This document shows, piece by piece, positions 1 through 64,000 of a stretch of 64,000 bases of DNA. The notes below the pieces were generated by a model that saw nothing but the letters and a program-made list of their open reading frames with translations, was not told the origin of the DNA and did not search any database. Numbering within the stretch: the stretch's first letter is position 1; each line of letters starts with the position of its first letter. The stretch is taken from assembly GCA_030272585.1 (NCBI GenBank), contig BSYQ01000013.1, positions 1-64,000 on the forward strand, given 5' to 3'. A program made the position numbers and the translations under genes. This stretch comes from Bryopsis sp. KO-2023 (Eukaryota; Chlorophyta; Ulvophyceae; Bryopsidales; Bryopsidaceae).

Positions 1-14
1 GGTATGAGGGCAAC
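1..14 (-). rRNA. 5S rRNA, 5' end only (cut by window edge)
   Basis: The first 14 bases are gene positions 14-1, the 5' strand of helix I and the start of CATACCA. The rest of this copy lies left of the window. Confidence 0.9.
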
Positions 15-88
15 ACGTTTGAATGCCTCCGTCGAGGGCTTTTGTACTCGTCCATCAAGCACATCCAACCTCCAAATCGAAAATAATC

Positions 89-204
89 AAGTTGCCCCGC
101 CGGATTTCCTGAGACATCCCTGATCTCGGTACTGATCGGCCCAATCGTGCTTGATTGGCGAGTTCGGAAGGGATCGCATGTTTTCACGATGGTATGAGGG
201 CAAC
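89..204 (-). pseudogene. 5S copy with two 1-bp losses
   Basis: One G is missing from the 3' strand of helix I and one from the run at p63-66, giving 116 nt. The unit (1-190) also has the T68 spacer deletion. Reduced stem pairing makes it a doubtful functional copy. Confidence 0.6.
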
Positions 205-464
205 ACGTTTGAATGCCTCCGTCGAGGGGCTTTTGTACTCGTCCATCAAGCACATCCATACCTCCAAATCGAAAATAATCAAGTTGCCCCCGCCGGATTT
301 CCTGAGACATCCCTGATCTCGGTACTGATCGGCCCCAATCGTGCTTGATTGGCGAGTTCGGAAGGGATCGCATGTTTTCACGATGGTATGAGGGCAACAC
401 GTTTGAATGCCTCCGTCGAGGGCTTTTGTACTCGTCCATCAAGCACATCCATACCTCCAAATCG

Positions 465-468
465 AAAA
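465..468 (-). terminator. RNA polymerase III T4 terminator (reference copy)
   Basis: On the transcribed strand four T residues (unit positions 84-81) follow the helix I 3' end by eight nucleotides (the intervening bases are TTGATTAT). A T-run of four or more just past the gene is the standard Pol III stop. The short gap implies a few 3' nucleotides are trimmed. It is lost in the unit at 12356 and lengthened to T5 or T8 in a few others. Confidence 0.8.
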
Positions 469-495
469 TAATCAAGTTGCCCCCGCCGGATTTCC

Positions 496-513
496 TGAGA
501 CATCCCTGATCTC
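496..513 (-). promoter_or_regulatory. internal control region, box C-like (reference copy)
   Basis: Gene positions 79-96 align with the 5S box C. GAT and the following GGGA are kept, but the animal GATGGGAGACC is loosened to GATCAGGGATGTC. The right end of this box coincides with the edge of the variable zone of the unit, at about p92. Function is inferred from position only. Confidence 0.5.
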
Positions 514-528
514 GGTACTGATCGGCCC

Positions 529-543
529 CAATCGTGCTTGATT
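529..543 (-). promoter_or_regulatory. internal control region, box A-like (reference copy)
   Basis: Gene positions 49-63 contain AATCAAGCA, in the place where 5S genes carry the box A of the TFIIIA-bound internal promoter (animal form has AAGCTAAGC). Only the AAGCA core is shared. Placement by alignment is firm; binding by a TFIIIA homologue is inferred. The same site occurs in every unit. Confidence 0.6.
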
Positions 544-615
544 GGCGAGTTCGGAAGGGATCGCATGTTTTCACGATGGTATGAGGGCAACACGTTTGAA
601 TGCCTCCGTCGAGGG

Positions 616-623
616 CTTTTGTA
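616..623 (-). promoter_or_regulatory. possible TATA-like upstream element (reference copy)
   Basis: TACAAAAG lies at -32 to -25 relative to the 5S 5' end at 591. This is the distance at which plant and some fungal 5S genes carry an AT-rich TATA-like box. It sits in the 48 bp directly upstream of the gene, which is nearly invariant across the array, in contrast to the variable downstream flank. The element is only weakly TATA-like, so function is a guess supported by position and conservation. Confidence 0.4.
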
Positions 624-1051
624 CTCGTCCATCAAGCACATCCATACCTCCAAATCGAAAATAATCAAGTTGCCCCCGCCGGATTTCCTGAGACATCCCT
701 GATCTCGGTACTGATCGGCCCCAATCGTGCTTGATTGGCGAGTTCGGAAGGGATCGCATGTTTTCACGATGGTATGAGGGCAACACGTTTGAATGCCTCC
801 GTCGAGGGCTTTTGTACTCGTCCATCAAGCACATCCATACCTCCAAATCGAAAATAATCAAGTTGCCCCGCCGGATTTCCTGAGACATCCCTGATCTCGG
901 TACTGATCGGCCCCAATCGTGCTTGATTGGCGAGTTCGGAAGGGATCGCATGTTTTCACGATGGTATGAGGGCAACACGTTTGAATGCCTCCGTCGAGGG
1001 CTTTTGTACTCGTCCATCAAGCACATCCATACCTCCAAATCGAAAATAATC

Positions 1052-1183
1052 AAGTTGCCCCCGCCGGATTTCCTGAGACATCCCTGATCTCGGTACTGAT
1101 CGGCCCAATCGTGCTTGATTGGCGAGTTCGGAATCGGGATCGGATGTGGTTGATCGCATGTTTCACGATGGTATGAGGGCAAC
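1052..1183 (-). pseudogene. 5S rRNA pseudogene with 16-bp insertion
   Basis: This is the longest unit in the window (963-1169, 207 bp). The gene carries a 16-bp insertion (plus-strand segment around 1134-1150) between the helix III 5' strand and loop C. It also has one base fewer in the run at p63-66 and one A fewer at p21-24. The insert contains echoes of its neighbourhood (GGGATCGG, TTGATCG), so it may be a scrambled local duplication. At 132 nt the product could not make a normal loop C, so the copy is very probably non-functional. Confidence 0.85.
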
Positions 1184-2994
1184 ACGTTTGAATGCCTCCG
1201 TCGAGGGCTTTTGTACTCGTCCATCAAGCACATCCATACCTCCAAATCGAAAATAATCAAGTTGCCCCCGCCGGATTTCCTGAGACATCCCTGATCTCGG
1301 TACTGATCGGCCCCAATCGTGCTTGATTGGCGAGTTCGGAAGGGATCGCATGTTTTCACGATGGTATGAGGGCAACACGTTTGAATGCCTCCGTCGAGGG
1401 CTTTTGTACTCGTCCATCAAGCACATCCATACCTCCAAATCGAAAATAATCAAGTTGCCCCCGCCGGATTTCCTGAGACATCCCTGATCTCGGTACTGAT
1501 CGGCCCCAATCGTGCTTGATTGGCGAGTTCGGAAGGGATCGCATGTTTTCACGATGGTATGAGGGCAACACGTTTGAATGCCTCCGTCGAGGGCTTTTGT
1601 ACTCGTCCATCAAGCACATCCATACCTCCAAATCGAAAATAATCAAGTTGCCCCCGCCGGATTTCCTGAGACATCCCTGATCTCGGTACTGATCGGCCCC
1701 AATCGTGCTTGATTGGCGAGTTCGGAAGGGATCGCATGTTTTCACGATGGTATGAGGGCAACACGTTTGAATGCCTCCGTCGAGGGCTTTTGTACTCGTC
1801 CATCAAGCACATCCAACCTCCAAATCGAAAATAATCAAGTTGCCCCCGCCGGATTTCCTGAGACATCCCTGATCTCGGTACTGATCGGCCCCAATCGTGC
1901 TTGATTGGCGAGTTCGGAAGGGATCGCATGTTTTCACGATGGTATGAGGGCAACACGTTTGAATGCCTCCGTCGAGGGCTTTTGTACTCGTCCATCAAGC
2001 ACATCCCACACCTCCAAATCGAAAATAATCAAGTTGCCCCCGCCGGATTTCCTGAGACATCCCTGATCTCGGTACTGATCGGCCCCAATCGTGCTTGATT
2101 GGCGAGTTCGGAAGGGATCGCATGTTTTCACGATGGTATGAGGGCAACACGTTTGAATGCCTCCGTCGAGGGCTTTTGTACTCGTCCATCAAGCACATCC
2201 ATACCTCCAAATCGAAAATAATCAAGTTGCCCCCGCCGGATTTCCTGAGACATCCCTGATCTCGGTACTGATCGGCCCCAATCGTGCTTGATTGGCGAGT
2301 TCGGAAGGGATCGCATGTTTTCACGATGGTATGAGGGCAACACGTTTGAATGCCTCCGTCGAGGGCTTTTGTACTCGTCCATCAAGCACATCCATACCTC
2401 CAAATCGAAAATAATCAAGTTGCCCCCGCCGGATTTCCTGAGACATCCCTGATCTCGGTACTGATCGGCCCCAATCGTGCTTGATTGGCGAGTTCGGAAG
2501 GGATCGCATGTTTTCACGATGGTATGAGGGCAACACGTTTGAATGCCTCCGTCGAGGGCTTTTGTACTCGTCCATCAAGCACATCCATACCTCCAAATCG
2601 AAAATAATCAAGTTGCCCCCGCCGGATTTCCTGAGACATCCCTGATCTCGGTACTGATCGGCCCCAATCGTGCTTGATTGGCGAGTTCGGAAGGGATCGC
2701 ATGTTTTCACGATGGTATGAGGGCAACACGTTTGAATGCCTCCGTCGAGGGCTTTTGTACTCGTCCATCAAGCACATCCAACCTCCAAATCTAAAATAAT
2801 CAAGTTGCCCCCGCCGGATTTCCTGAGACATCCCTGATCTCGGTACTGATCGGCCCCAATCGTGCTTGATTGGCGAGTTCGGAAGGGATCGCATGTTTTC
2901 ACGATGGTATGAGGGCAACACGTTTGAATGCCTCCGTCGAGGGCTTTTGTACTCGTCCATCAAGCACATCCATACCTCCAAATCGAAAATAATC

Positions 2995-3113
2995 AAGTTG
3001 CCCCCGCCGGATTTCCTGAGACATCCCTGATCTCGGTACTGATCGGCCCCAATCGTGCTTGATTGGCGAGTTCGGAAGGGATCGCATGTTTTCACGATGG
3101 TATGAGGGCAAAC
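2995..3113 (-). pseudogene. 5S copy with an extra base in the 5' strand of helix I
   Basis: The unit starting at 3099 has GGCAAACACG in place of GGCAACACG. In the RNA, helix I then opens with GTTTGCCC and needs a bulged U to pair. It is the only change of the 5' gene end in the window. The copy may still work. Confidence 0.5.
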
Positions 3114-5696
3114 ACGTTTGAATGCCTCCGTCGAGGGCTTTTGTACTCGTCCATCAAGCACATCCAAACCTCCAAATCGAAAATAATCAAGTTGCCCCCG
3201 CCGGATTTCCTGAGACATCCCTGATCTCGGTACTGATCGGCCCCAATCGTGCTTGATTGGCGAGTTCGGAAGGGATCGCATGTTTTCACGATGGTATGAG
3301 GGCAACACGTTTGAATGCCTCCGTCGAGGGCTTTTGTACTCGTCCATCAAGCACATCCATACCTCCAAATCGAAAATAATCAAGTTGCCCCCGCCGGATT
3401 TCCTGAGACATCCCTGATCTCGGTACTGATCGGCCCCAATCGTGCTTGATTGGCGAGTTCGGAAGGGATCGCATGTTTTCACGATGGTATGAGGGCAACA
3501 CGTTTGAATGCCTCCGTCGAGGGCTTTTGTACTCGTCCATCAAGCACATCCATACCTCCAAATCGAAAATAATCAAGTTGCCCCCGCCGGATTTCCTGAG
3601 ACATCCCTGATCTCGGTACTGATCGGCCCCAATCGTGCTTGATTGGCGAGTTCGGAAGGGATCGCATGTTTTCACGATGGTATGAGGGCAACACGTTTGA
3701 ATGCCTCCGTCGAGGGCTTTTGTACTCGTCCATCAAGCACATCCATACCTCCAAATCGAAAATAATCAAGTTGCCCCCGCCGGATTTCCTGAGACATCCC
3801 TGATCTCGGTACTGATCGGCCCCAATCGTGCTTGATTGGCGAGTTCGGAAGGGATCGCATGTTTTCACGATGGTATGAGGGCAACACGTTTGAATGCCTC
3901 CGTCGAGGGCTTTTGTACTCGTCCATCAAGCACATCCATACCTCCAAATCGAAAATAATCAAGTTGCCCCCGCCGGATTTCCTGAGACATCCCTGATCTC
4001 GGTACTGATCGGCCCCAATCGTGCTTGATTGGCGAGTTCGGAAGGGATCGCATGTTTTCACGATGGTATGAGGGCAACACGTTTGAATGCCTCCGTCGAG
4101 GGCTTTTGTACTCGTCCATCAAGCACATCCATACCTCCAAATCGAAAATAATCAAGTTGCCCCCGCCGGATTTCCTGAGACATCCCTGATCTCGGTACTG
4201 ATCGGCCCCAATCGTGCTTGATTGGCGAGTTCGGAAGGGATCGCATGTTTTCACGATGGTATGAGGGCAACACGTTTGAATGCCTCCGTCGAGGGCTTTT
4301 GTACTCGTCCATCAAGCACATCCATACCTCCAAATCGAAAATAATCAAGTTGCCCCCGCCGGATTTCCTGAGACATCCCTGATCTCGGTACTGATCGGCC
4401 CCAATCGTGCTTGATTGGCGAGTTCGGAAGGGATCGCATGTTTTCACGATGGTATGAGGGCAACACGTTTGAATGCCTCCGTCGAGGGCTTTTGTACTCG
4501 TCCATCAAGCACATCCATACCTCCAAATCGAAAATAATCAAGTTGCCCCCGCCGGATTTCCTGAGACATCCCTGATCTCGGTACTGATCGGCCCCAATCG
4601 TGCTTGATTGGCGAGTTCGGAAGGGATCGCATGTTTTCACGATGGTATGAGGGCAACACGTTTGAATGCCTCCGTCGAGGGCTTTTGTACTCGTCCATCA
4701 AGCACATCCATACCTCCAAATCGAAAATAATCAAGTTGCCCCCGCCGGATTTCCTGAGACATCCCTGATCTCGGTACTGATCGGCCCCAATCGTGCTTGA
4801 TTGGCGAGTTCGGAAGGGATCGCATGTTTTCACGATGGTATGAGGGCAACACGTTTGAATGCCTCCGTCGAGGGCTTTTGTACTCGTCCATCAAGCACAT
4901 CCATACCTCCAAATCGAAAATAATCAAGTTGCCCCCGCCGGATTTCCTGAGACATCCCTGATCTCGGTACTGATCGGCCCCAATCGTGCTTGATTGGCGA
5001 GTTCGGAAGGGATCGCATGTTTTCACGATGGTATGAGGGCAACACGTTTGAATGCCTCCGTCGAGGGCTTTTGTACTCGTCCATCAAGCACATCCATACC
5101 TCCAAATCGAAAATAATCAAGTTGCCCCCGCCGGATTTCCTGAGACATCCCTGATCTCGGTACTGATCGGCCCCAATCGTGCTTGATTGGCGAGTTCGGA
5201 AGGGATCGCATGTTTTCACGATGGTATGAGGGCAACACGTTTGAATGCCTCCGTCGAGGGCTTTTGTACTCGTCCATCAAGCACATCCATACCTCCAAAT
5301 CGAAAATAATCAAGTTGCCCCCGCCGGATTTCCTGAGACATCCCTGATCTCGGTACTGATCGGCCCCAATCGTGCTTGATTGGCGAGTTCGGAAGGGATC
5401 GCATGTTTTCACGATGGTATGAGGGCAACACGTTTGAATGCCTCCGTCGAGGGCTTTTGTACTCGTCCATCAAGCACATCCAACCTCCAAATCGAAAATA
5501 ATCAAGTTGCCCCCGCCGGATTTCCTGAGACATCCCTGATCTCGGTACTGATCGGCCCCAATCGTGCTTGATTGGCGAGTTCGGAAGGGATCGCATGTTT
5601 TCACGATGGTATGAGGGCAACACGTTTGAATGCCTCCGTCGAGGGCTTTTGTACTCGTCCATCAAGCACATCCATACCTCCAAATCGAAAATAATC

Positions 5697-5816
5697 AAGT
5701 TGTTGCCCCGCCGGATTTCCTGAGACATCCCTGATCTCGGTACTGATCGGCCCCAATCGTGCTTGATTGGCGAGTTCGGAAGGGATCGCATGTTTTCACG
5801 ATGGTATGAGGGCAAC
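5697..5816 (-). pseudogene. 5S copy with a 3-bp duplication at the 3' end
   Basis: The plus strand reads AAGTTGTTGCCCCGCC: GTT is duplicated and one C is lost. The RNA would end in GGGGCAACAAC, a shorter G-run with a duplicated tail. The unit is 195 bp (5608-5802). The duplication looks like replication slippage at the gene end. Confidence 0.6.
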
Positions 5817-8800
5817 ACGTTTGAATGCCTCCGTCGAGGGCTTTTGTACTCGTCCATCAAGCACATCCATACCTCCAAATCGAAAATAATCAAGTTGCCC
5901 CCGCCGGATTTCCTGAGACATCCCTGATCTCGGTACTGATCGGCCCCAATCGTGCTTGATTGGCGAGTTCGGAAGGGATCGCATGTTTTCACGATGGTAT
6001 GAGGGCAACACGTTTGAATGCCTCCGTCGAGGGCTTTTGTACTCGTCCATCAAGCACATCCATACCTCCAAATCTAAAATAATCAAGTTGCCCCCGCCGG
6101 ATTTCCTGAGACATCCCTGATCTCGGTACTGATCGGCCCCAATCGTGCTTGATTGGCGAGTTCGGAAGGGATCGCATGTTTTCACGATGGTATGAGGGCA
6201 ACACGTTTGAATGCCTCCGTCGAGGGCTTTTGTACTCGTCCATCAAGCACATCCATACCTCCAAATCGAAAATAATCAAGTTGCCCCCGCCGGATTTCCT
6301 GAGACATCCCTGATCTCGGTACTGATCGGCCCCAATCGTGCTTGATTGGCGAGTTCGGAAGGGATCGCATGTTTTCACGATGGTATGAGGGCAACACGTT
6401 TGAATGCCTCCGTCGAGGGCTTTTGTACTCGTCCATCAAGCACATCCAAACCTCCAAATCGAAAATAATCAAGTTGCCCCCGCCGGATTTCCTGAGACAT
6501 CCCTGATCTCGGTACTGATCGGCCCCAATCGTGCTTGATTGGCGAGTTCGGAAGGGATCGCATGTTTTCACGATGGTATGAGGGCAACACGTTTGAATGC
6601 CTCCGTCGAGGGCTTTTGTACTCGTCCATCAAGCACATCCATACCTCCAAATCGAAAATAATCAAGTTGCCCCCGCCGGATTTCCTGAGACATCCCTGAT
6701 CTCGGTACTGATCGGCCCCAATCGTGCTTGATTGGCGAGTTCGGAAGGGATCGCATGTTTTCACGATGGTATGAGGGCAACACGTTTGAATGCCTCCGTC
6801 GAGGGCTTTTGTACTCGTCCATCAAGCACATCCATACCTCCAAATCGAAAATAATCAAGTTGCCCCCGCCGGATTTCCTGAGACATCCCTGATCTCGGTA
6901 CTGATCGGCCCCAATCGTGCTTGATTGGCGAGTTCGGAAGGGATCGCATGTTTTCACGATGGTATGAGGGCAACACGTTTGAATGCCTCCGTCGAGGGCT
7001 TTTGTACTCGTCCATCAAGCACATCCAAACCTCCAAATCAAAAATAATCAAGTTGCCCCGCCGGATTTCCTGAGACATCCCTGATCTCGGTACTGATCGG
7101 CCCCAATCGTGCTTGATTGGCGAGTTCGGAAGGGATCGCATGTTTTCACGATGGTATGAGGGCAACACGTTTGAATGCCTCCGTCGAGGGCTTTTGTACT
7201 CGTCCATCAAGCACATCCATACCTCCAAATCAAAAATAATCAAGTTGCCCCCGCCGGATTTCCTGATACATCCCTGATCTCGGTACTGATCGGCCCCAAT
7301 CGTGCTTGATTGGCGAGTTCGGAAGGGATCGCATGTTTTCACGATGGTATGAGGGCAACACGTTTGAATGCCTCCGTCGAGGGCTTTTGTACTCGTCCAT
7401 CAAGCACATCCATACCTCCAAATCAAAAATAATCACGTTGCCCCGCCGGATTTCCTGAGACATCCCTGATCTCGGTACTGATCGGCCCCAATCGTGCTTG
7501 ATTGGCGAGTTCGGAAGGGATCGCATGTTTTCACGATGGTATGAGGGCAACACGTTTGAATGCCTCCGTCGAGGGCTTTTGTACTCGTCCATCAAGCACA
7601 TCCATACCTCCAAATCGAAAATAATCAAGTTGCCCCCGCCGGATTTCCTGAGACATCCCTGATCTCGGTACTGATCGGCCCCAATCGTGCTTGATTGGCG
7701 AGTTCGGAAGGGATCGCATGTTTTCACGATGGTATGAGGGCAACACGTTTGAATGCCTCCGTCGAGGGCTTTTGTACTCGTCCATCAAGCACATCCAAAC
7801 CTCCAAATCGAAAATAATCAAGTTGCCCCCGCCGGATTTCCTTGAGACATCCCTGATCTCGGTACTGATCGGCCCCAATCGTGCTTGATTGGCGAGTTCG
7901 GAAGGGATCGCATGTTTTCACGATGGTATGAGGGCAACACGTTTGAATGCCTCCGTCGAGGGCTTTTGTACTCGTCCATCAAGCACATCCATACCTCCAA
8001 ATCGAAAATAATCAAGTTGCCCCCGCCGGATTTCCTGAGACATCCCTGATCTCGGTACTGATCGGCCCCAATCGTGCTTGATTGGCGAGTTCGGAAGGGA
8101 TCGCATGTTTTCACGATGGTATGAGGGCAACACGTTTGAATGCCTCCGTCGAGGGCTTTTGTACTCGTCCATCAAGCACATCCATACCTCCAAATCGAAA
8201 ATAATCAAGTTGCCCCCGCCGGATTTCCTGAGACATCCCTGATCTCGGTACTGATCGGCCCCAATCGTGCTTGATTGGCGAGTTCGGAAGGGATCGCATG
8301 TTTTCACGATGGTATGAGGGCAACACGTTTGAATGCCTCCGTCGAGGGCTTTTGTACTCGTCCATCAAGCACATCCATACCTCCAAATCGAAAATAATCA
8401 AGTTGCCCCCGCCGGATTTCCTGAGACATCCCTGATCTCGGTACTGATCGGCCCAATCGTGCTTGATTGGCGAGTTCGGAAGGGATCGCATGTTTTCACG
8501 ATGGTATGAGGGCAACACGTTTGAATGCCTCCGTCGAGGGCTTTTGTACTCGTCCATCAAGCACATCCAACCTCCAAATCGAAAATAATCAAGTTGCCCC
8601 CGCCGGATTTCCTGAGACATCCCTGATCTCGGTACTGATCGGCCCCAATCGTGCTTGATTGGCGAGTTCGGAAGGGATCGCATGTTTTCACGATGGTATG
8701 AGGGCAACACGTTTGAATGCCTCCGTCGAGGGCTTTTGTACTCGTCCATCAAGCACATCCATACCTCCAAATCGAAAATAATCAAGTTGCCCCCGCCGGA

Positions 8801-10905
8801 TTTCCTGAGACATCCCTGATCTCGGTACTGATCGGCCCCAATCGTGCTTGATTGGCGAGTTCGGAAGGGATCGCATGTTTTCACGATGGTATGAGGGCAA
8901 CACGTTTGAATGCCTCCGTCGAGGGCTTTTGTACTCGTCCATCAAGCACATCCATACCTCCAAATCGAAAATAATCAAGTTGCCCCCGCCGGATTTCCTG
9001 AGACATCCCTGATCTCGGTACTGATCGGCCCCAATCGTGCTTGATTGGCGAGTTCGGAAGGGATCGCATGTTTTCACGATGGTATGAGGGCAACACGTTT
9101 GAATGCCTCCGTCGAGGGCTTTTGTACTCGTCCATCAAGCACATCCATACCTCCAAATCGAAAATAATCAAGTTGCCCCCGCCGGATTTCCTGAGACATC
9201 CCTGATCTCGGTACTGATCGGCCCCAATCGTGCTTGATTGGCGAGTTCGGAAGGGATCGCATGTTTTCACGATGGTATGAGGGCAACACGTTTGAATGCC
9301 TCCGTCGAGGGCTTTTGTACTCGTCCATCAAGCACATCCATACCTCCAAATCGAAAATAATCAAGTTGCCCCCGCCGGATTTCCTGAGACATCCCTGATC
9401 TCGGTACTGATCGGCCCCAATCGTGCTTGATTGGCGAGTTCGGAAGGGATCGCATGTTTTCACGATGGTATGAGGGCAACACGTTTGAATGCCTCCGTCG
9501 AGGGCTTTTGTACTCGTCCATCAAGCACATCCAACCTCCAAATCGAAAATAATCAAGTTGCCCCCGCCGGATTTCCTGAGACATCCCTGATCTCGGTACT
9601 GATCGGCCCCAATCGTGCTTGATTGGCGAGTTCGGAAGGGATCGCATGTTTTCACGATGGTATGAGGGCAACACGTTTGAATGCCTCCGTCGAGGGCTTT
9701 TGTACTCGTCCATCAAGCACATCCATACCTCCAAATCGAAAATAATCAAGTTGCCCCCGCCGGATTTCCTGAGACATCCCTGATCTCGGTACTGATCGGC
9801 CCCAATCGTGCTTGATTGGCGAGTTCGGAAGGGATCGCATGTTTTCACGATGGTATGAGGGCAACACGTTTGAATGCCTCCGTCGAGGGCTTTTGTACTC
9901 GTCCATCAAGCACATCCATACCTCCAAATCGAAAATAATCAAGTTGCCCCCGCCGGATTTCCTGAGACATCCCTGATCTCGGTACTGATCGGCCCCAATC
10001 GTGCTTGATTGGCGAGTTCGGAAGGGATCGCATGTTTTCACGATGGTATGAGGGCAACACGTTTGAATGCCTCCGTCGAGGGCTTTTGTACTCGTCCATC
10101 AAGCACATCCATACCTCCAAATCGAAAATAATCAAGTTGCCCCCGCCGGATTTCCTGAGACATCCCTGATCTCGGTACTGATCGGCCCCAATCGTGCTTG
10201 ATTGGCGAGTTCGGAAGGGATCGCATGTTTTCACGATGGTATGAGGGCAACACGTTTGAATGCCTCCGTCGAGGGCTTTTGTACTCGTCCATCAAGCACA
10301 TCCATACCTCCAAATCGAAAATAATCAAGTTGCCCCCGCCGGATTTCCTGAGACATCCCTGATCTCGGTACTGATCGGCCCCAATCGTGCTTGATTGGCG
10401 AGTTCGGAAGGGATCGCATGTTTTCACGATGGTATGAGGGCAACACGTTTGAATGCCTCCGTCGAGGGCTTTTGTACTCGTCCATCAAGCACATCCAAAC
10501 CTCCAAATCGAAAATAATCAAGTTGCCCCCGCCGGATTTCCTGAGACATCCCTGATCTCGGTACTGATCGGCCCCAATCGTGCTTGATTGGCGAGTTCGG
10601 AAGGGATCGCATGTTTTCACGATGGTATGAGGGCAACACGTTTGAATGCCTCCGTCGAGGGCTTTTGTACTCGTCCATCAAGCACATCCATACCTCCAAA
10701 TCGAAAATAATCAAGTTGCCCCCGCCGGATTTCCTGAGACATCCCTGATCTCGGTACTGATCGGCCCCAATCGTGCTTGATTGGCGAGTTCGGAAGGGAT
10801 CGCATGTTTTCACGATGGTATGAGGGCAACACGTTTGAATGCCTCCGTCGAGGGCTTTTGTACTCGTCCATCAAGCACATCCATACCTCCAAATCGAAAA
10901 TAATC

Positions 10906-11021
10906 AAGTTGCCCCCCGGATTTCCTGAGACATCCCTGATCTCGGTACTGATCGGCCCCAATCGTGCTTGATTGGCGAGTTCGGAAGGGATCGCATGTTT
11001 TCACGATGGTATGAGGGCAAC
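10906..11021 (-). pseudogene. 5S copy lacking two bases in the terminal stem junction
   Basis: The plus strand reads GTTGCCCCCCGGA; two bases of CCCCCGCCGG are gone. This alters the helix I/helix V junction at p103-112. The same allele recurs in the gene at 53520-53635, 42 kb away. Confidence 0.6.
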
Positions 11022-11200
11022 ACGTTTGAATGCCTCCGTCGAGGGCTTTTGTACTCGTCCATCAAGCACATCCATACCTCCAAATCGAAAATAATCAAGT
11101 TGCCCCCGCCGGATTTCCTGAGACATCCCTGATCTCGGTACTGATCGGCCCCAATCGTGCTTGATTGGCGAGTTCGGAAGGGATCGCATGTTTTCACGAT

Positions 11201-11392
11201 GGTATGAGGGCAACACGTTTGAATGCCTCCGGCTCGGGCTTTTGTACGCTGCCATCAAGCACAGCCAACCTCCAAATCGAAAATAATCAAGTTGCCCCCG
11301 CCGGATTTCCTGAGACATCCCTGATCTCGGTACTGATCGGCCCCAATCGTGCTTGATTGGCGAGTTCGGAAGGGATCGCATGTTTTCACGAT
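11201..11392 (-). promoter_or_regulatory. unit with divergent upstream flank
   Basis: Plus-strand changes at unit positions 31-35 (GTCGA to GGCTC), 48-51, and 64 (T to G), plus the position-68 deletion, all fall in the upstream flank of the gene whose 5' end is at 11214. The TACAAAAG element itself is replaced only at its distal side. It is the most altered upstream flank in the window. The T64G plus deletion combination is shared with the unit at 28355. Confidence 0.7.
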
Positions 11393-11584
11393 GGTATGAG
11401 GGCAACACGTTTGAATGCCTCCGTCGAGGGCTTTTGTACTCGTCCATCAAGCACATCCAACCTCCAAATCGAAAATAATCAAGTTGCCCCCGCCGGATTT
11501 CCTGAGACATCCCTGATCTCGGTACTGATCGGCCCCAATCGTGCTTGATTGGCGAGTTCGGAAGGGATCGCATGTTTTCACGAT

Positions 11585-11776
11585 GGTATGAGGGCAACAC
11601 GTTTGAATGCCTCCGTCGAGGGCTTTTGTACTCGTTCATCAAGCACATCCATCCTCCAAATCGAAAATAATCAAGTTGCCCCCGCCGGATTTCCTGAGAC
11701 ATCCCTGATCTCGGTACTGATCGGCCCCAATCGTGCTTGATTGGCGAGTTCGGAAGGGATCGCATGTTTTCACGAT
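11585..11776. repeat. 192-bp unit with C52T and A69 deletion
   Basis: The plus strand reads CTCGTTCATC and CATCCATCCTCC. Exactly the same two-marker combination occurs only once more, in the unit at 28740, 17155 bp away. The 5S gene in it is unchanged. Confidence 0.9.
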
Positions 11777-12355
11777 GGTATGAGGGCAACACGTTTGAAT
11801 GCCTCCGTCGAGGGCTTTTGTACTCGTCCATCAAGCACATCCATACCTCCAAATCGAAAATAATCAAGTTGCCCCCGCCGGATTTCCTGAGACATCCCTG
11901 ATCTCGGTACTGATCGGCCCCAATCGTGCTTGATTGGCGAGTTCGGAAGGGATCGCATGTTTTCACGATGGTATGAGGGCAACACGTTTGAATGCCTCCG
12001 TCGAGGGCTTTTGTACTCGTCCATCAAGCACATCCATACCTCCAAATCTAAAATAATCAAGTTGCCCCCGCCGGATTTCCTGAGACATCCCTGATCTCGG
12101 TACTGATCGGCCCCAATCGTGCTTGATTGGCGAGTTCGGAAGGGATCGCATGTTTTCACGATGGTATGAGGGCAACACGTTTGAATGCCTCCGTCGAGGG
12201 CTTTTGTACTCGTCCATCAAGCACATCCATACCTCCAAATCGAAAATAATCAAGTTGCCCCCGCCGGATTTCCTGAGACATCCCTGATCTCGGTACTGAT
12301 CGGCCCCAATCGTGCTTGATTGGCGAGTTCGGAAGGGATCGCATGTTTTCACGAT

Positions 12356-52100: not shown

Positions 52101-55100
52101 AATGCCTCCGTCGAGGGCTTTTGTACTCGTCCATCAAGCACATCCATACCTCCAAATCGAAAATAATCAAGTTGCCCCCGCCGGATTTCCTGAGACATCC
52201 CTGATCTCGGTACTGATCGGCCCCAATCGTGCTTGATTGGCGAGTTCGGAAGGGATCGCATGTTTTCACGATGGTATGAGGGCAACACGTTTGAATGCCT
52301 CCGTCGAGGGCTTTTGTACTCGTCCATCAAGCACATCCATACCTCCAAATCGAAAATAATCAAGTTGCCCCCGCCGGATTTCCTGAGACATCCCTGATCT
52401 CGGTACTGATCGGCCCCAATCGTGCTTGATTGGCGAGTTCGGAAGGGATCGCATGTTTTCACGATGGTATGAGGGCAACACGTTTGAATGCCTCCGTCGA
52501 GGGCTTTTGTACTCGTCCATCAAGCACATCCAAACCTCCAAATCGAAAATAATCAAGTTGCCCCCGCCGGATTTCCTGAGACATCCCTGATCTCGGTACT
52601 GATCGGCCCCAATCGTGCTTGATTGGCGAGTTCGGAAGGGATCGCATGTTTTCACGATGGTATGAGGGCAACACGTTTGAATGCCTCCGTCGAGGGCTTT
52701 TGTACTCGTCCATCAAGCACATCCACACCTCCAAATCGAAAATAATCAAGTTGCCCCCGCCGGATTTCCTGAGACATCCCTGATCTCGGTACTGATCGGC
52801 CCCAATCGTGCTTGATTGGCGAGTTCGGAAGGGATCGCATGTTTTCACGATGGTATGAGGGCAACACGTTTGAATGCCTCCGTCGAGGGCTTTTGTACTC
52901 GTCCATCAAGCACATCCATACCTCCAAATCGAAAATAATCAAGTTGCCCCCGCCGGATTTCCTGAGACATCCCTGATCTCGGTACTGATCGGCCCCAATC
53001 GTGCTTGATTGGCGAGTTCGGAAGGGATCGCATGTTTTCACGATGGTATGAGGGCAACACGTTTGAATGCCTCCGTCGAGGGCTTTTGTACTCGTCCATC
53101 AAGCACATCCATACCTCCAAATCGAAAATAATCAAGTTGCCCCCGCCGGATTTCCTGAGACATCCCTGATCTCGGTACTGATCGGCCCCAATCGTGCTTG
53201 ATTGGCGAGTTCGGAAGGGATCGCATGTTTTCACGATGGTATGAGGGCAACACGTTTGAATGCCTCCGTCGAGGGCTTTTGTACTCGTCCATCAAGCACA
53301 TCCATACCTCCAAATCGAAAATAATCAAGTTGCCCCCGCCGGATTTCCTGAGACATCCCTGATCTCGGTACTGATCGGCCCCAATCGTGCTTGATTGGCG
53401 AGTTCGGAAGGGATCGCATGTTTTCACGATGGTATGAGGGCAACACGTTTGAATGCCTCCGTCGAGGGCTTTTGTACTCGTCCATCAAGCACATCCAAAC
53501 CTCCAAATCGAAAATAATCAAGTTGCCCCCCGGATTTCCTGAGACATCCCTGATCTCGGTACTGATCGGCCCCAATCGTGCTTGATTGGCGAGTTCGGAA
53601 GGGATCGCATGTTTTCACGATGGTATGAGGGCAACACGTTTGAATGCCTCCGTCGAGGGCTTTTGTACTCGTCCATCAAGCACATCCATACCTCCAAATC
53701 GAAAATAATCAAGTTGCCCCCGCCGGATTTCCTGAGACATCCCTGATCTCGGTACTGATCGGCCCCAATCGTGCTTGATTGGCGAGTTCGGAAGGGATCG
53801 CATGTTTTCACGATGGTATGAGGGCAACACGTTTGAATGCCTCCGTCGAGGGCTTTTGTACTCGTCCATCAAGCACATCCAAACCTCCAAATCGAAAATA
53901 ATCAAGTTGCCCCCGCCGGATTTCCTGAGACATCCCTGATCTCGGTACTGATCGGCCCCAATCGTGCTTGATTGGCGAGTTCGGAAGGGATCGCATGTTT
54001 TCACGATGGTATGAGGGCAACACGTTTGAATGCCTCCGTCGAGGGCTTTTGTACTCGTCCATCAAGCACATCCATACCTCCAAATCGAAAATAATCAAGT
54101 TGCCCCCGCCGGATTTCCTGAGACATCCCTGATCTCGGTACTGATCGGCCCCAATCGTGCTTGATTGGCGAGTTCGGAAGGGATCGCATGTTTTCACGAT
54201 GGTATGAGGGCAACACGTTTGAATGCCTCCGTCGAGGGCTTTTGTACTCGTCCATCAAGCACATCCATACCTCCAAATCGAAAATAATCAAGTTGCCCCG
54301 CCGGATTTCCTGAGACATCCCTGATCTCGGTACTGATCGGCCCCAATCGTGCTTGATTGGCGAGTTCGGAAGGGATCGCATGTTTTCACGATGGTATGAG
54401 GGCAACACGTTTGAATGCCTCCGTCGAGGGCTTTTGTACTCGTCCATCAAGCACATCCAACCTCCAAATCGAAAATAATCAAGTTGCCCCCGCCGGATTT
54501 CCTGAGACATCCCTGATCTCGGTACTGATCGGCCCCAATCGTGCTTGATTGGCGAGTTCGGAAGGGATCGCATGTTTTCACGATGGTATGAGGGCAACAC
54601 GTTTGAATGCCTCCGTCGAGGGCTTTTGTACTCGTCCATCAAGCACATCCATACCTCCAAATCGAAAATAATCAAGTTGCCCCCGCCGGATTTCCTGAGA
54701 CATCCCTGATCTCGGTACTGATCGGCCCCAATCGTGCTTGATTGGCGAGTTCGGAAGGGATCGCATGTTTTCACGATGGTATGAGGGCAACACGTTTGAA
54801 TGCCTCCGTCGAGGGCTTTTGTACTCGTCCATCAAGCACATCCATACCTCCAAATCGAAAATAATCAAGTTGCCCCCGCCGGATTTCCTGAGACATCCCT
54901 GATCTCGGTACTGATCGGCCCCAATCGTGCTTGATTGGCGAGTTCGGAAGGGATCGCATGTTTTCACGATGGTATGAGGGCAACACGTTTGAATGCCTCC
55001 GTCGAGGGCTTTTGTACTCGTCCATCAAGCACATCCATACCTCCAAATCGAAAATAATCAAGTTGCCCCCGCCGGATTTCCTGAGACATCCCTGATCTCG

Positions 55101-58053
55101 GTACTGATCGGCCCCAATCGTGCTTGATTGGCGAGTTCGGAAGGGATCGCATGTTTTCACGATGGTATGAGGGCAACACGTTTGAATGCCTCCGTCGAGG
55201 GCTTTTGTACTCGTCCATCAAGCACATCCATACCTCCAAATCGAAAATAATCAAGTTGCCCCCGCCGGATTTCCTGAGACATCCCTGATCTCGGTACTGA
55301 TCGGCCCCAATCGTGCTTGATTGGCGAGTTCGGAAGGGATCGCATGTTTTCACGATGGTATGAGGGCAACACGTTTGAATGCCTCCGTCGAGGGCTTTTG
55401 TACTCGTCCATCAAGCACATCCAACCTCCAAATCGAAAATAATCAAGTTGCCCCCGCCGGATTTCCTGAGACATCCCTGATCTCGGTACTGATCGGCCCC
55501 AATCGTGCTTGATTGGCGAGTTCGGAAGGGATCGCATGTTTTCACGATGGTATGAGGGCAACACGTTTGAATGCCTCCGTCGAGGGCTTTTGTACTCGTC
55601 CATCAAGCACATCCATACCTCCAAATCGAAAATAATCAAGTTGCCCCCGCCGGATTTCCTGAGACATCCCTGATCTCGGTACTGATCGGCCCCAATCGTG
55701 CTTGATTGGCGAGTTCGGAAGGGATCGCATGTTTTCACGATGGTATGAGGGCAACACGTTTGAATGCCTCCGTCGAGGGCTTTTGTACTCGTCCATCAAG
55801 CACATCCATACCTCCAAAGCGAAAATAATCAAGTTGCCCCGCCGGATTTCCTGAGACATCCCTGATCTCGGTACTGATCGGCCCCAATCGTGCTTGATTG
55901 GCGAGTTCGGAAGGGATCGCATGTTTTCACGATGGTATGAGGGCAACACGTTTGAATGCCTCCGTCGAGGGCTTTTGTACTCGTCCATCAAGCACATCCA
56001 TACCTCCAAATCGAAAATAATCAAGTTGCCCCCGCCGGATTTCCTGAGACATCCCTGATCTCGGTACTGATCGGCCCCAATCGTGCTTGATTGGCGAGTT
56101 CGGAAGGGATCGCATGTTTTCACGATGGTATGAGGGCAACACGTTTGAATGCCTCCGTCGAGGGCTTTTGTACTCGTCCATCAAGCACATCCATACCTCC
56201 AAATCGAAAATAATCAAGTTGCCCCCGCCGGATTTCCTGAGACATCCCTGATCTCGGTACTGATCGGCCCCAATCGTGCTTGATTGGCGAGTTCGGAAGG
56301 GATCGCATGTTTTCACGATGGTATGAGGGCAACACGTTTGAATGCCTCCGTCGAGGGCTTTTGTACTCGTCCATCAAGCACATCCATACCTCCAAATCGA
56401 AAATAATCAAGTTGCCCCCGCCGGATTTCCTGAGACATCCCTGATCTCGGTACTGATCGGCCCCAATCGTGCTTGATTGGCGAGTTCGGAAGGGATCGCA
56501 TGTTTTCACGATGGTATGAGGGCAACACGTTTGAATGCCTCCGTCGAGGGCTTTTGTACTCGTCCATCAAGCACATCCATACCTCCAAATCGAAAATAAT
56601 CAAGTTGCCCCCGCCGGATTTCCTGAGACATCCCTGATCTCGGTACTGATCGGCCCCAATCGTGCTTGATTGGCGAGTTCGGAAGGGATCGCATGTTTTC
56701 ACGATGGTATGAGGGCAACACGTTTGAATGCCTCCGTCGAGGGCTTTTGTACTCGTCCATCAAGCACATCCAAACCTCCAAATCGAAAATAATCAAGTTG
56801 CCCCGCCGGATTTCCTGAGACATCCCTGATCTCGGTACTGATCGGCCCCAATCGTGCTTGATTGGCGAGTTCGGAAGGGATCGCATGTTTTCACGATGGT
56901 ATGAGGGCAACACGTTTGAATGCCTCCGTCGAGGGCTTTTGTACTCGTCCATCAAGCACATCCATACCTCCAAATCGAAAATAATCAAGTTGCCCCCCCG
57001 GATTTCCTGAGACATCCCTGATCTCGGTACTGATCGGCCCCAATCGTGCTTGATTGGCGAGTTCGGAAGGGATCGCATGTTTTCACGATGGTATGAGGGC
57101 AACACGTTTGAATGCCTCCGTCGAGGGCTTTTGTACTCGTCCATCAAGCACATCCATACCTCCAAATCGAAAATAATCAAGTTGCCCCCGCCGGATTTCC
57201 TGAGACATCCCTGATCTCGGTACTGATCGGCCCCAATCGTGCTTGATTGGCGAGTTCGGAAGGGATCGCATGTTTTCACGATGGTATGAGGGCAACACGT
57301 TTGAATGCCTCCGTCGAGGGCTTTTGTACTCGTCCATCAAGCACATCCATACCTCCAACTCGAAAATAATCAAGTTGCCCCCGCCGGATTTCCTGAGACA
57401 TCCCTGATCTCGGTACTGATCGGCCCCAATCGTGCTTGATTGGCGAGTTCGGAAGGGATCGCATGTTTTCACGATGGTATGAGGGCAACACGTTTGAATG
57501 CCTCCGTCGAGGGCTTTTGTACTCGTCCATCAAGCACATCCATACCTCCAAATCGAAAATAATCAAGTTGCCCCCGCCGGATTTCCTGAGACATCCCTGA
57601 TCTCGGTACTGATCGGCCCCAATCGTGCTTGATTGGCGAGTTCGGAAGGGATCGCATGTTTTCACGATGGTATGAGGGCAACACGTTTGAATGCCTCCGT
57701 CGAGGGCTTTTGTACTCGTCCATCAAGCACATCCAACCTCCAAATCGAAAATAATCAAGTTGCCCCCGCCGGATTTCCTCAGACATCCCTGATCTCGGTA
57801 CTGATCGGCCCCAATCGTGCTTGATTGGCGAGTTCGGAAGGGATCGCATGTTTTCACGATGGTATGAGGGCAACACGTTTGAATGCCTCCGTCGAGGGCT
57901 TTTGTACTCGTCCATCAAGCACATCCATACCTCCAAATCGAAAATAATCAAGTTGCCCCCGCCGGATTTCTTGAGACATCCCTGATCTCGGTACTGATCG
58001 GCCCCAATCGTGCTTGATTGGCGAGTTCGGAAGGGATCGCATGTTTTCACGAT
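46103..58053 (-). rRNA. second diversified 5S gene block, 62 units
   Basis: About 25 of 62 units are variant and 11 genes are altered. Stem-run losses to C4 affect the genes at 46771-46887, 54290-54406, 55831-55947 and 56795-56911. Loss of the base at p107, giving seven plus-strand C residues, affects 48893-49009, 49278-49394 and 56987-57103. A two-base loss affects 53520-53635. A one-base loss near p98 affects 50242-50358. Substitutions lie in 57757-57874 (p95) and 57950-58067 (p97). Confidence 0.9.
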
Positions 58054-61000
58054 GGTATGAGGGCAACACGTTTGAATGCCTCCGTCGAGGGCTTTTGTAC
58101 TCGTCCATCAAGCACATCCATACCTCCAAATCGAAAATAATCAAGTTGCCCCCGCCGGATTTCCTGAGACATCCCTGATCTCGGTACTGATCGGCCCCAA
58201 TCGTGCTTGATTGGCGAGTTCGGAAGGGATCGCATGTTTTCACGATGGTATGAGGGCAACACGTTTGAATGCCTCCGTCGAGGGCTTTTGTACTCGTCCA
58301 TCAAGCACATCCATACCTCCAAATCGAAAATAATCAAGTTGCCCCCGCCGGATTTCCTGAGACATCCCTGATCTCGGTACTGATCGGCCCCAATCGTGCT
58401 TGATTGGCGAGTTCGGAAGGGATCGCATGTTTTCACGATGGTATGAGGGCAACACGTTTGAATGCCTCCGTCGAGGGCTTTTGTACTCGTCCATCAAGCA
58501 CATCCATACCTCCAAATCGAAAATAATCAAGTTGCCCCCGCCGGATTTCCTGAGACATCCCTGATCTCGGTACTGATCGGCCCCAATCGTGCTTGATTGG
58601 CGAGTTCGGAAGGGATCGCATGTTTTCACGATGGTATGAGGGCAACACGTTTGAATGCCTCCGTCGAGGGCTTTTGTACTCGTCCATCAAGCACATCCAT
58701 ACCTCCAAATCGAAAATAATCAAGTTGCCCCCGCCGGATTTCCTGAGACATCCCTGATCTCGGTACTGATCGGCCCCAATCGTGCTTGATTGGCGAGTTC
58801 GGAAGGGATCGCATGTTTTCACGATGGTATGAGGGCAACACGTTTGAATGCCTCCGTCGAGGGCTTTTGTACTCGTCCATCAAGCACATCCATACCTCCA
58901 AATCGAAAATAATCAAGTTGCCCCCGCCGGATTTCCTGAGACATCCCTGATCTCGGTACTGATCGGCCCCAATCGTGCTTGATTGGCGAGTTCGGAAGGG
59001 ATCGCATGTTTTCACGATGGTATGAGGGCAACACGTTTGAATGCCTCCGTCGAGGGCTTTTGTACTCGTCCATCAAGCACATCCATACCTCCAAATCGAA
59101 AATAATCAAGTTGCCCCCGCCGGATTTCCTGAGACATCCCTGATCTCGGTACTGATCGGCCCCAATCGTGCTTGATTGGCGAGTTCGGAAGGGATCGCAT
59201 GTTTTCACGATGGTATGAGGGCAACACGTTTGAATGCCTCCGTCGAGGGCTTTTGTACTCGTCCATCAAGCACATCCATACCTCCAAATCGAAAATAATC
59301 AAGTTGCCCCCGCCGGATTTCCTGAGACATCCCTGATCTCGGTACTGATCGGCCCCAATCGTGCTTGATTGGCGAGTTCGGAAGGGATCGCATGTTTTCA
59401 CGATGGTATGAGGGCAACACGTTTGAATGCCTCCGTCGAGGGCTTTTGTACTCGTCCATCAAGCACATCCATACCTCCAAATCGAAAATAATCAAGTTGC
59501 CCCCGCCGGATTTCCTGAGACATCCCTGATCTCGGTACTGATCGGCCCCAATCGTGCTTGATTGGCGAGTTCGGAAGGGATCGCATGTTTTCACGATGGT
59601 ATGAGGGCAACACGTTTGAATGCCTCCGTCGAGGGCTTTTGTACTCGTCCATCAAGCACATCCAACCTCCAAATCGAAAATAATCAAGTTGCCCCCGCCG
59701 GATTTCCTGAGACATCCCTGATCTCGGTACTGATCGGCCCCAATCGTGCTTGATTGGCGAGTTCGGAAGGGATCGCATGTTTTCACGATGGTATGAGGGC
59801 AACACGTTTGAATGCCTCCGTCGAGGGCTTTTGTACTCGTCCATCAAGCACATCCATACCTCCAAATCGAAAATAATCAAGTTGCCCCCGCCGGATTTCC
59901 TGAGACATCCCTGATCTCGGTACTGATCGGCCCCAATCGTGCTTGATTGGCGAGTTCGGAAGGGATCGCATGTTTTCACGATGGTATGAGGGCAACACGT
60001 TTGAATGCCTCCGTCGAGGGCTTTTGTACTCGTCCATCAAGCACATCCATACCTCCAAATCGAAAATAATCAAGTTGCCCCCGCCGGATTTCCTGAGACA
60101 TCCCTGATCTCGGTACTGATCGGCCCCAATCGTGCTTGATTGGCGAGTTCGGAAGGGATCGCATGTTTTCACGATGGTATGAGGGCAACACGTTTGAATG
60201 CCTCCGTCGAGGGCTTTTGTACTCGTCCATCAAGCACATCCATACCTCCAAATCGAAAATAATCAAGTTGCCCCCGCCGGATTTCCTGAGACATCCCTGA
60301 TCTCGGTACTGATCGGCCCCAATCGTGCTTGATTGGCGAGTTCGGAAGGGATCGCATGTTTTCACGATGGTATGAGGGCAACACGTTTGAATGCCTCCGT
60401 CGAGGGCTTTTGTACTCGTCCATCAAGCACATCCATACCTCCAAATCGAAAATAATCAAGTTGCCCCCGCCGGATTTCCTGAGACATCCCTGATCTCGGT
60501 ACTGATCGGCCCCAATCGTGCTTGATTGGCGAGTTCGGAAGGGATCGCATGTTTTCACGATGGTATGAGGGCAACACGTTTGAATGCCTCCGTCGAGGGC
60601 TTTTGTACTCGTCCATCAAGCACATCCATACCTCCAAATCGAAAATAATCAAGTTGCCCCCGCCGGATTTCCTGAGACATCCCTGATCTCGGTACTGATC
60701 GGCCCCAATCGTGCTTGATTGGCGAGTTCGGAAGGGATCGCATGTTTTCACGATGGTATGAGGGCAACACGTTTGAATGCCTCCGTCGAGGGCTTTTGTA
60801 CTCGTCCATCAAGCACATCCATACCTCCAAATCGAAAATAATCAAGTTGCCCCCGCCGGATTTCCTGAGACATCCCTGATCTCGGTACTGATCGGCCCCA
60901 ATCGTGCTTGATTGGCGAGTTCGGAAGGGATCGCATGTTTTCACGATGGTATGAGGGCAACACGTTTGAATGCCTCCGTCGAGGGCTTTTGTACTCGTCC

Positions 61001-63840
61001 ATCAAGCACATCCATACCTCCAAATCGAAAATAATCAAGTTGCCCCCGCCGGATTTCCTGAGACATCCCTGATCTCGGTACTGATCGGCCCCAATCGTGC
61101 TTGATTGGCGAGTTCGGAAGGGATCGCATGTTTTCACGATGGTATGAGGGCAACACGTTTGAATGCCTCCGTCGAGGGCTTTTGTACTCGTCCATCAAGC
61201 ACATCCATACCTCCAAATCGAAAATAATCAAGTTGCCCCCGCCGGATTTCCTGAGACATCCCTGATCTCGGTACTGATCGGCCCCAATCGTGCTTGATTG
61301 GCGAGTTCGGAAGGGATCGCATGTTTTCACGATGGTATGAGGGCAACACGTTTGAATGCCTCCGTCGAGGGCTTTTGTACTCGTCCATCAAGCACATCCA
61401 TACCTCCAAATCGAAAATAATCAAGTTGCCCCCGCCGGATTTCCTGAGACATCCCTGATCTCGGTACTGATCGGCCCCAATCGTGCTTGATTGGCGAGTT
61501 CGGAAGGGATCGCATGTTTTCACGATGGTATGAGGGCAACACGTTTGAATGCCTCCGTCGAGGGCTTTTGTACTCGTCCATCAAGCACATCCATACCTCC
61601 AAATCGAAAATAATCAAGTTGCCCCCGCCGGATTTCCTGAGACATCCCTGATCTCGGTACTGATCGGCCCCAATCGTGCTTGATTGGCGAGTTCGGAAGG
61701 GATCGCATGTTTTCACGATGGTATGAGGGCAACACGTTTGAATGCCTCCGTCGAGGGCTTTTGTACTCGTCCATCAAGCACATCCATACCTCCAAATCGA
61801 AAATAATCAAGTTGCCCCCGCCGGATTTCCTGAGACATCCCTGATCTCGGTACTGATCGGCCCCAATCGTGCTTGATTGGCGAGTTCGGAAGGGATCGCA
61901 TGTTTTCACGATGGTATGAGGGCAACACGTTTGAATGCCTCCGTCGAGGGCTTTTGTACTCGTCCATCAAGCACATCCATACCTCCAAATCGAAAATAAT
62001 CAAGTTGCCCCGCCGGATTTCCTGAGACATCCCTGATCTCGGTACTGATCGGCCCCAATCGTGCTTGATTGGCGAGTTCGGAAGGGATCGCATGTTTTCA
62101 CGATGGTATGAGGGCAACACGTTTGAATGCCTCCGTCGAGGGCTTTTGTACTCGTCCATCAAGCACATCCATACCTCCAAATCGAAAATAATCAAGTTGC
62201 CCCCGCCGGATTTCCTGAGACATCCCTGATCTCGGTACTGATCGGCCCCAATCGTGCTTGATTGGCGAGTTCGGAAGGGATCGCATGTTTTCACGATGGT
62301 ATGAGGGCAACACGTTTGAATGCCTCCGTCGAGGGCTTTTGTACTCGTCCATCAAGCACATCCATACCTCCAAATCGAAAATAATCAAGTTGCCCCCGCC
62401 GGATTTCCTGAGACATCCCTGATCTCGGTACTGATCGGCCCCAATCGTGCTTGATTGGCGAGTTCGGAAGGGATCGCATGTTTTCACGATGGTATGAGGG
62501 CAACACGTTTGAATGCCTCCGTCGAGGGCTTTTGTACTCGTCCATCAAGCACATCCATACCTCCAAATCGAAAATAATCAAGTTGCCCCCGCCGGATTTC
62601 CTGAGACATCCCTGATCTCGGTACTGATCGGCCCCAATCGTGCTTGATTGGCGAGTTCGGAAGGGATCGCATGTTTTCACGATGGTATGAGGGCAACACG
62701 TTTGAATGCCTCCGTCGAGGGCTTTTGTACTCGTCCATCAAGCACATCCATACCTCCAAATCGAAAATAATCAAGTTGCCCCCGCCGGATTTCCTGAGAC
62801 ATCCCTGATCTCGGTACTGATCGGCCCCAATCGTGCTTGATTGGCGAGTTCGGAAGGGATCGCATGTTTTCACGATGGTATGAGGGCAACACGTTTGAAT
62901 GCCTCCGTCGAGGGCTTTTGTACTCGTCCATCAAGCACATCCATACCTCCAAATCGAAAATAATCAAGTTGCCCCCGCCGGATTTCCTGAGACATCCCTG
63001 ATCTCGGTACTGATCGGCCCCAATCGTGCTTGATTGGCGAGTTCGGAAGGGATCGCATGTTTTCACGATGGTATGAGGGCAACACGTTTGAATGCCTCCG
63101 TCGAGGGCTTTTGTACTCGTCCATCAAGCACATCCATACCTCCAAATCGAAAATAATCAAGTTGCCCCCGCCGGATTTCCTGAGACATCCCTGATCTCGG
63201 TACTGATCGGCCCCAATCGTGCTTGATTGGCGAGTTCGGAAGGGATCGCATGTTTTCACGATGGTATGAGGGCAACACGTTTGAATGCCTCCGTCGAGGG
63301 CTTTTGTACTCGTCCATCAAGCACATCCATACCTCCAAATCGAAAATAATCAAGTTGCCCCCGCCGGATTTCCTGAGACATCCCTGATCTCGGTACTGAT
63401 CGGCCCCAATCGTGCTTGATTGGCGAGTTCGGAAGGGATCGCATGTTTTCACGATGGTATGAGGGCAACACGTTTGAATGCCTCCGTCGAGGGCTTTTGT
63501 ACTCGTCCATCAAGCACATCCATACCTCCAAATCGAAAATAATCAAGTTGCCCCCGCCGGATTTCCTGAGACATCCCTGATCTCGGTACTGATCGGCCCC
63601 AATCGTGCTTGATTGGCGAGTTCGGAAGGGATCGCATGTTTTCACGATGGTATGAGGGCAACACGTTTGAATGCCTCCGTCGAGGGCTTTTGTACTCGTC
63701 CATCAAGCACATCCAACCTCCAAATCGAAAATAATCAAGTTGCCCCCGCCGGATTTCCTGAGACATCCCTGATCTCGGTACTGATCGGCCCCAATCGTGC
63801 TTGATTGGCGAGTTCGGAAGGGATCGCATGTTTTCACGAT
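58054..63840 (-). rRNA. right-hand homogenised 5S gene block, 30 units
   Basis: Only the units starting at 59598 and 63649 (T68 deleted) and 61913 (C4 stem run, gene 62002-62118) differ from consensus. The remaining 27 units are identical. Confidence 0.92.
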
Positions 63841-63928
63841 GGTATGAGGGCAACACGTTTGAATGCCTCCGTCGAGGGCTTTTGTACTCGTCCATCAAGC
63901 ACATCCAACCTCCAAATCGAAAATAATC

Positions 63929-64000
63929 AAGTTGCCCCCGCCGGATTTCCTGAGACATCCCTGATCTCGGTACTGATCGGCCCCAATCGTGCTTGATTGG
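63929..64000 (-). rRNA. 5S rRNA, 3' part only (cut by window edge)
   Basis: Gene positions 118-47 are present with consensus sequence. The 5' 46 nt lie to the right of the window. The unit carries the one-base spacer deletion at unit position 68. Confidence 0.9.

Follow-up and report, generated by a model that had tools for sequence, protein, structure and literature searches.

Tandem arrays of eukaryotic 5S rDNA consist of near-identical genes in head-to-tail order, with short spacers, a T-run, and divergent copies toward the edge. The array described here has all of these features. It differs in its 74-bp spacer and in sharing its genome with two further 5S classes that have other neighbours.

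In zebrafish, the maternal 5S genes are reported to stand in tandem, several thousand of them with small intergenic regions between, and the somatic genes to be few and to have long ones (PMC12953832). The two organisms are alike in having a large array class with short spacers, a few-copy class with long spacers, and two versions of the RNA. They differ in that ours is an alga, in which the two versions (classes A and C, below) differ at 12 of 119 sites and class A also lies in tRNA arrays. In Entamoeba, tRNA genes are reported to form long tandem arrays in which some of the units include 5S, and E. invadens also to have a 5S-only array (PMC2652664). Tandem tRNA arrays with 5S, seen where 63 of 8630 first-look tRNA candidates were scored, and a 5S-only array like that of E. 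invadens occur here too. The units are larger here (2.8–11 kb), and they occur in a genome with TTTAGGG telomere repeats and chlorophyll a/b-binding proteins. Pike 5S rDNA is reported (PMC5437419) likewise to form an amplified array in which the genes are conserved in fold and the spacers are more variable; far fewer copies are counted in Bryopsis sp. KO-2023.

Among the papers listed in a literature search, none reports tRNA/5S tandem arrays in green algae, judged by titles and abstract openings. The tRNA/5S arrays described below are mixed tandem arrays outside Entamoeba, in which a 5S-only array stands beside mixed units of the same kind. The window is the whole stretch of DNA that was analysed, 64,000 nucleotides corresponding to bases 1–64,000 of contig C13 in a eukaryotic assembly of 91.1 Mb and 28 contigs.

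A 193-bp repeat matches 5S rRNA throughout the window

The whole window (positions 1–64,000) is reported by Tandem Repeats Finder in a single row, as one tandem repeat with a period of 193, 331.8 copies and 99% matches. An earlier reading of the letters of the window, hereafter the sequence-only reading, proposed that this apparent satellite is an array of 5S rRNA genes and that the Rfam model RF00001 be used to check it. That search, run as proposed, supports the claim. At Rfam curated thresholds, the window contains 331 matches, the best 150 of which are all to RF00001, on the minus strand, at 82.9–83.5 bits where the cut-off is 38. Within the first 6,000 bases, all 31 of the 31 Rfam matches are to RF00001 on the minus strand (59–83.5 bits, gathering score 38), mostly at 82.9 bits over the full model. 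The consensus unit scores 82.9 bits against 38 and covers positions 1–120 of the 120 in the model. An anchor count independent of Rfam also finds 331 genes in the window.

A period of 193 bp, high homogeneity, and 276 ORFs of at least 90 aa are features that a centromeric or structural satellite unrelated to 5S rRNA could present, as could tandem genes for small proteins. Set against the 331 covariance matches and the three compensated helix pairs described below, such a reading retains almost no probability. A satellite without a tie to 5S is ruled out by the covariance matches. The ORFs (97–322 aa, all on the minus strand) follow the frame of the repeat, because 193 is not a multiple of three and the period therefore opens them in rotating frames. 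The sequence-only reading had warned that the stretch would be easy to mislabel as many small proteins. A stretch that looks like a satellite or like small ORFs is in this case a ribosomal RNA gene array, and should be annotated accordingly.

The same reading had placed a complete 5S gene on the minus strand of every unit. The strand and the 331 genes stand; some units hold an imperfect gene. Of 330 whole units in the window, 286 carry a gene identical to the commonest one, and the copy at positions 1,052–1,184 on the minus strand (RF00001, 133 nt, 59 bits) has an insertion within the gene's 5' half, which makes it either a damaged gene or a local consensus error. The best-scoring copy in the window, at positions 5,700–5,817 on the minus strand (RF00001, 118 nt, 83.5 bits), has one base fewer in the G run near its 3' end.

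The array continues past the window. It runs from the start of contig C13 to about C13:117,300, and C13:1–164,000 contains 609 anchor matches, the last of which is a separate copy at 118,874 with tRNA-Glu(ctc) and tRNA-Gly(tcc) immediately before it. The contig begins within the array, so the full array may be longer than its assembled part.

Architecture of the 193-bp unit

Each unit consists of a 119-nt gene followed by GATTATTTTCG, and the spacer between genes of this class is 74 bp. A representative consensus gene occupies positions 281–399 on the minus strand, with its 5' end at 399 (RF00001, 82.9 bits). In the commonest unit, TTTT begins at the sixth base past the gene; in the representative unit, read directly from the sequence, it lies at positions 272–275 (minus strand, unit positions 125–128). 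TTTT is present near the 3' end in 606 of the 609 array copies and in 329 of the 331 window copies, consistent with the earlier description of a Pol III T-run. Upstream, the element TACAAAAG is present in 608 of 609 copies and starts at −31 in 605 of 609; in the representative unit it spans −31 to −24 (positions 423–430, minus strand). A match to TACRAAAG within −45 to −1 is found in 609 of 609 copies. The unit thus described would be a compact RNA polymerase III gene, with a putative TATA-like promoter element near −31, the 119-nt 5S gene, and a T-run as the probable terminator. A scan for bacterial promoters and terminators is not meaningful here.

The fold of the gene agrees with that of 5S rRNA. 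In the consensus gene, all 30 pairs assigned to the five 5S helices are intact, as the sequence-only reading had stated for the helices. RNAalifold, unaided, predicts 34 pairs, among them all 30 assigned. The helix II strands of the gene, ATCGTG and CACGAT, have the letters and the pairing given in the sequence-only reading. The gap-free match to human 5S, put there at about 58%, is 66 of 118 positions (56%), where the best of 500 shuffles reaches 47. When each is folded by itself, the consensus genes of the three classes described below are only slightly more stable than shuffled sequences (z of −1.91 for C, −1.51 for A, and −0.85 for B); helix IV is missing from the best single fold of class A.

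The window is a true 5S rRNA gene array, part of a longer 5S rDNA array. Its RNA is most likely made, shortened at the 3' end by a few bases, and then employed in ribosomes; we consider this explanation as a whole probable.

Variation among the copies

We analyse 607 units, that is, the 609 anchors minus two without a next anchor within 260 bp. The gene is identical to the commonest gene in 458 of the 607, and the whole unit is identical in 335. Gene substitutions per unit are 0.00–0.12 in each 10-kb bin over the first 70 kb and 0.67–0.84 in the last three bins, at the edge of the array on C13. That the copies are so homogeneous, and diverge more near the edge, suggests that they are kept alike by unequal exchange and conversion.

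Over the 607 units, there are 140 substitution events in the 119 sites of the gene and 247 in the 74 sites of the spacer, a contrast due in large part to one hotspot, unit positions 141–142, which accounts for 137 of the 247 spacer events. The recurrent spacer changes are A141T in 97, A141G in 28, and C129T in 35 of the 607 units. Distinct substitution types are distributed unevenly along the unit: 15 over the 93 sites of positions 1–93 (0.16 per site), 19 over the 26 sites of 94–119 (0.73), 30 over the 43 spacer sites of 120–162 (0.70), and 9 over the 31 spacer sites of 163–193 (0.29), in a four-part division made post hoc and with positions 1–21 belonging to the anchor. The distribution fits constraint on a stretch that begins with the upstream element and reaches across the internal promoter; mutation hotspots could produce the same picture.

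At paired sites, 19 of the 21 substitution types break a pair, and no double changes are seen in the 607 units. Single copies therefore appear weakly constrained, as expected for redundant genes.

The genes of the 607 units also contain 87 indels, 57 of which are deletions at positions 107–110, in or beside the G run (47 of them at 109). Such deletions, together with a contig that starts inside the array and another, C16, that ends in the same repeat, are what would be seen if the array were real and its length and some unit variants were effects of assembly (collapse, expansion, or homopolymer consensus errors). The divergent edge copies, the variants that recur in many units, and the mixed tRNA/5S units look instead like a real array, and we consider assembly effects of this kind quite improbable. 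The identity of the genes as 5S is independent of copy number.

Three classes of 5S genes in the genome

A whole-genome RF00001 search gives 4213 first-look candidates, 47 of which were scored; all 47 of the 47 match the model. The 5S genes of this genome fall into three classes. Class A lies in tRNA repeats of about 11 kb and as single copies, class B in tRNA repeats of 2.8–3.3 kb, and class C, the window type, on contigs C13 and C16. Because the array is one of three classes, calling it "the" 5S genes of the organism would be too simple.

The tRNA-array form of class A scores 86.4 bits, is found close to contig ends on C5, C9 and C10, and has TTTT directly after the gene. Most neighbouring copies on C5 and C9 are about 11–11.5 kb apart, and the one full repeat read, on C5, has 26 tRNA genes from one 5S gene to the next. 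Single class A copies occur on C1, C4 (two), C5, C6, C7 and C9 at 76.6–91.1 bits. Seven single class A loci, at unrelated sites, have a run of 3–5 T at the end of the gene and may be either retro-inserted copies or working genes. A further single 5S copy lies on C3, outside the set of genes read. Class B repeats are 2.8–3.3 kb long, with some longer gaps, carry Gly, Lys, Ser and Leu tRNAs, and begin at about 5.73 Mb on C5. At the two class B loci on C5 (5.73 Mb and 6.00 Mb), which belong to two arrays in opposite directions, loop A has CAAA in place of CAUA, and positions 8 and 111 are mismatched. Some class C copies on C13 beyond the window reach 88.1–89.3 bits, so that scores overlap between the classes (A arrays 86.4, A singles 76.6–91.1, commonest C 82.9, some C 88.1–89.3 bits).

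With at most 3 mismatches, pattern counts give 1018 for the class A core, which admits B and C too, 777 for the class C 3' flank, and 242 for the class B 5' part, which admits A too; exact class A cores number 31 in the pattern list. Together, these counts suggest gene numbers of roughly 30 for A, 210 for B and 780 for C.

As a gene array, the 5S array is of an ordinary kind. More interest attaches to the 5S classes, which have diverged yet preserve the fold and which stand next to large tRNA/5S arrays. With three such classes, the genome also offers natural, nearby controls for the exchangeability of 5S in ribosomes.

Compensated helix changes between classes A and C

Between the consensus genes of classes A and C, 12 of the 119 sites differ. 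Six of the differing sites are helix positions, and together they make up three compensated pairs: G8–C111 becomes C–G, C17–G61 becomes U–A, and G81–C95 becomes A–U. None of the 30 helix pairs is broken between the two consensus genes. When 12 changes are placed at random, with sites taken as equal and independent, the probability of three or more compensated pairs is 7e-5, and that of no broken pair is 0.0016. Pair 81–95 is absent from the Rfam model structure and is taken from RNAalifold and from the eukaryotic helix IV.

Class B keeps C17–G61 and has A8 opposite C111, a mismatch; pair 8–111 is thus paired in C and unpaired in B. When the outgroups are human 5S, Arabidopsis 5S and the Rfam consensus, 81–95 changed on the B/C side and 17–61 in C alone, which indicates that structural selection acted in the very lineage of the window array. 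Class C has drifted in sequence from another 5S class, with compensated pairs wherever the two consensus genes differ in a helix. The comparison provides good evidence, at the level of sequence, for structural selection on the array RNA after its split from class A. The sequence-only reading had drawn a similar argument for selection on the RNA from helix II against human 5S. The argument holds against the other 5S genes of the same genome, which are a better yardstick.

A wider set comprises 24 genes, 23 of them distinct: 7 of 11 class A genes read (four identical ones omitted), all 4 class B genes read, and 13 class C genes picked by hand, mostly variants. In this set, 98.0% of 690 cells pair, and 30–42% do so when the partner is slid by 1–3 columns. 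Cells changed on both sides number 25; shuffles average 9.1, and none of 500 reaches 25. Two of the five measures fail to exceed the shuffles: the pairs changed on both sides in this set (4; 118 of 500 as high) and its further pair types, which are fewer than in shuffles (500 of 500 as high). The 24-gene count adds little beyond the class comparison, because related rows are counted many times.

Sites 53 and 73 are C in classes C and B, and T in main class A, in human and Arabidopsis 5S, and in the Rfam consensus. Among the class A singles, one copy, on C6, also has C at 53. These sites fall at the internal promoter and at loop E. In sequence terms, they would count against full equivalence of class C with class A.

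These sites bear on the possibility that the array is a 5S-derived satellite, in which class A, perhaps with B, makes the ribosomal 5S, and the class C array is silent or rarely read and keeps its shape from an earlier functional period. Other 5S genes do exist, the class A form in tRNA arrays stands slightly closer to the Rfam model (86.4 bits, with 82.9 for the commonest class C gene), class C differs from main class A at two sites common to all outgroups used, and single copies tolerate helix-breaking changes. Large 5S arrays can, moreover, be heavily methylated and are thought to be silenced, as reported for pikes (PMC5437419). An unread satellite, however, should break helices. Pair 17–61 changed in the class C lineage alone and is still paired, 8–111 is paired in C, the consensus has no broken helix pair, and the upstream element and the T-run are near universal in the array copies. 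The compensated changes are, among the sequence arguments, the strongest evidence against a dead satellite. Class A could serve as the main ribosomal 5S with class C as a reserve or silenced set, and we regard the satellite explanation as a whole as unlikely.

If the class C array is transcribed, as we prefer, the alga may make two ribosomal 5S RNAs, C from the 5S-only array and A from the tRNA arrays and single genes, serving different life stages or ribosome pools and diverging by compensated helix changes. Judged by their sequences, two classes do lie in separate gene sets, as in the dual 5S system of zebrafish and Xenopus. We put this idea forward tentatively, as somewhat unlikely in its full form; stage-specific use in this genome is a guess.

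Mixed tRNA/5S repeats and the probable origin of the array

On C16, the stretch read contains groups of 5S genes at 193-bp spacing, separated by about 1.5 kb with tRNA-Glu and tRNA-Gly. It shows 96.7% identity over 2540 bases to the array edge on C13. A 3.2-kb piece near the end of C16 carries 16 consecutive 5S copies, and the last 800 bases of the contig are the same mixed tRNA/5S spacer. The genes have the same direction on the C13 and C16 stretches read. The right end of C16 and the left end of C13 may be one locus, split in the assembly.

The spacer of the class B repeat and the mixed spacer of class C are 66% identical over 884 bases, from which B and C likely descend from one mixed repeat. 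The array probably grew from a mixed tRNA-Glu/tRNA-Gly/5S repeat of the kind still found at its edge and on C16; the order of events suggested here is the one that this arrangement makes plausible.

Long tandem arrays of tRNA genes lie on C5 at about 2.78–3.77 Mb and 5.73–6.18 Mb. Genome-wide, there are 8630 first-look tRNA candidates; 63 were scored, 49 of these on C5. Four loci on C5, C9 and C10, toward the contig ends, have repeats with many different tRNA genes and class A 5S.

Genomic surroundings

Two loci on contig C24 belong to a 45S rDNA repeat of about 12.45 kb. No linkage of 5S to 45S rDNA is found in the readable 7.5 kb of 12.5 kb from this repeat, the rest being N. Searches for elicitin (PF00964) and cryptophyte phycoerythrin (PF02972) give no match in the genome; the control genomes are silent too, so these results carry little weight. 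Among 10 ORFs chosen from 5S loci and the C13 flank, 4 have ordinary Pfam domains. Three features suggest a siphonous green alga. TTTAGGG repeats are present in 5 of 11 contig-end pieces. The chlorophyll a/b-binding domain (PF00504) has 107 matches in the genome. Among the best 60 PDB matches of an LHC exon, the first is 9vfj_2, named LHCI-2, and siphonaxanthin LHCs named "Bry-Lhcb" stand at ranks 3, 6, 7 and 8.
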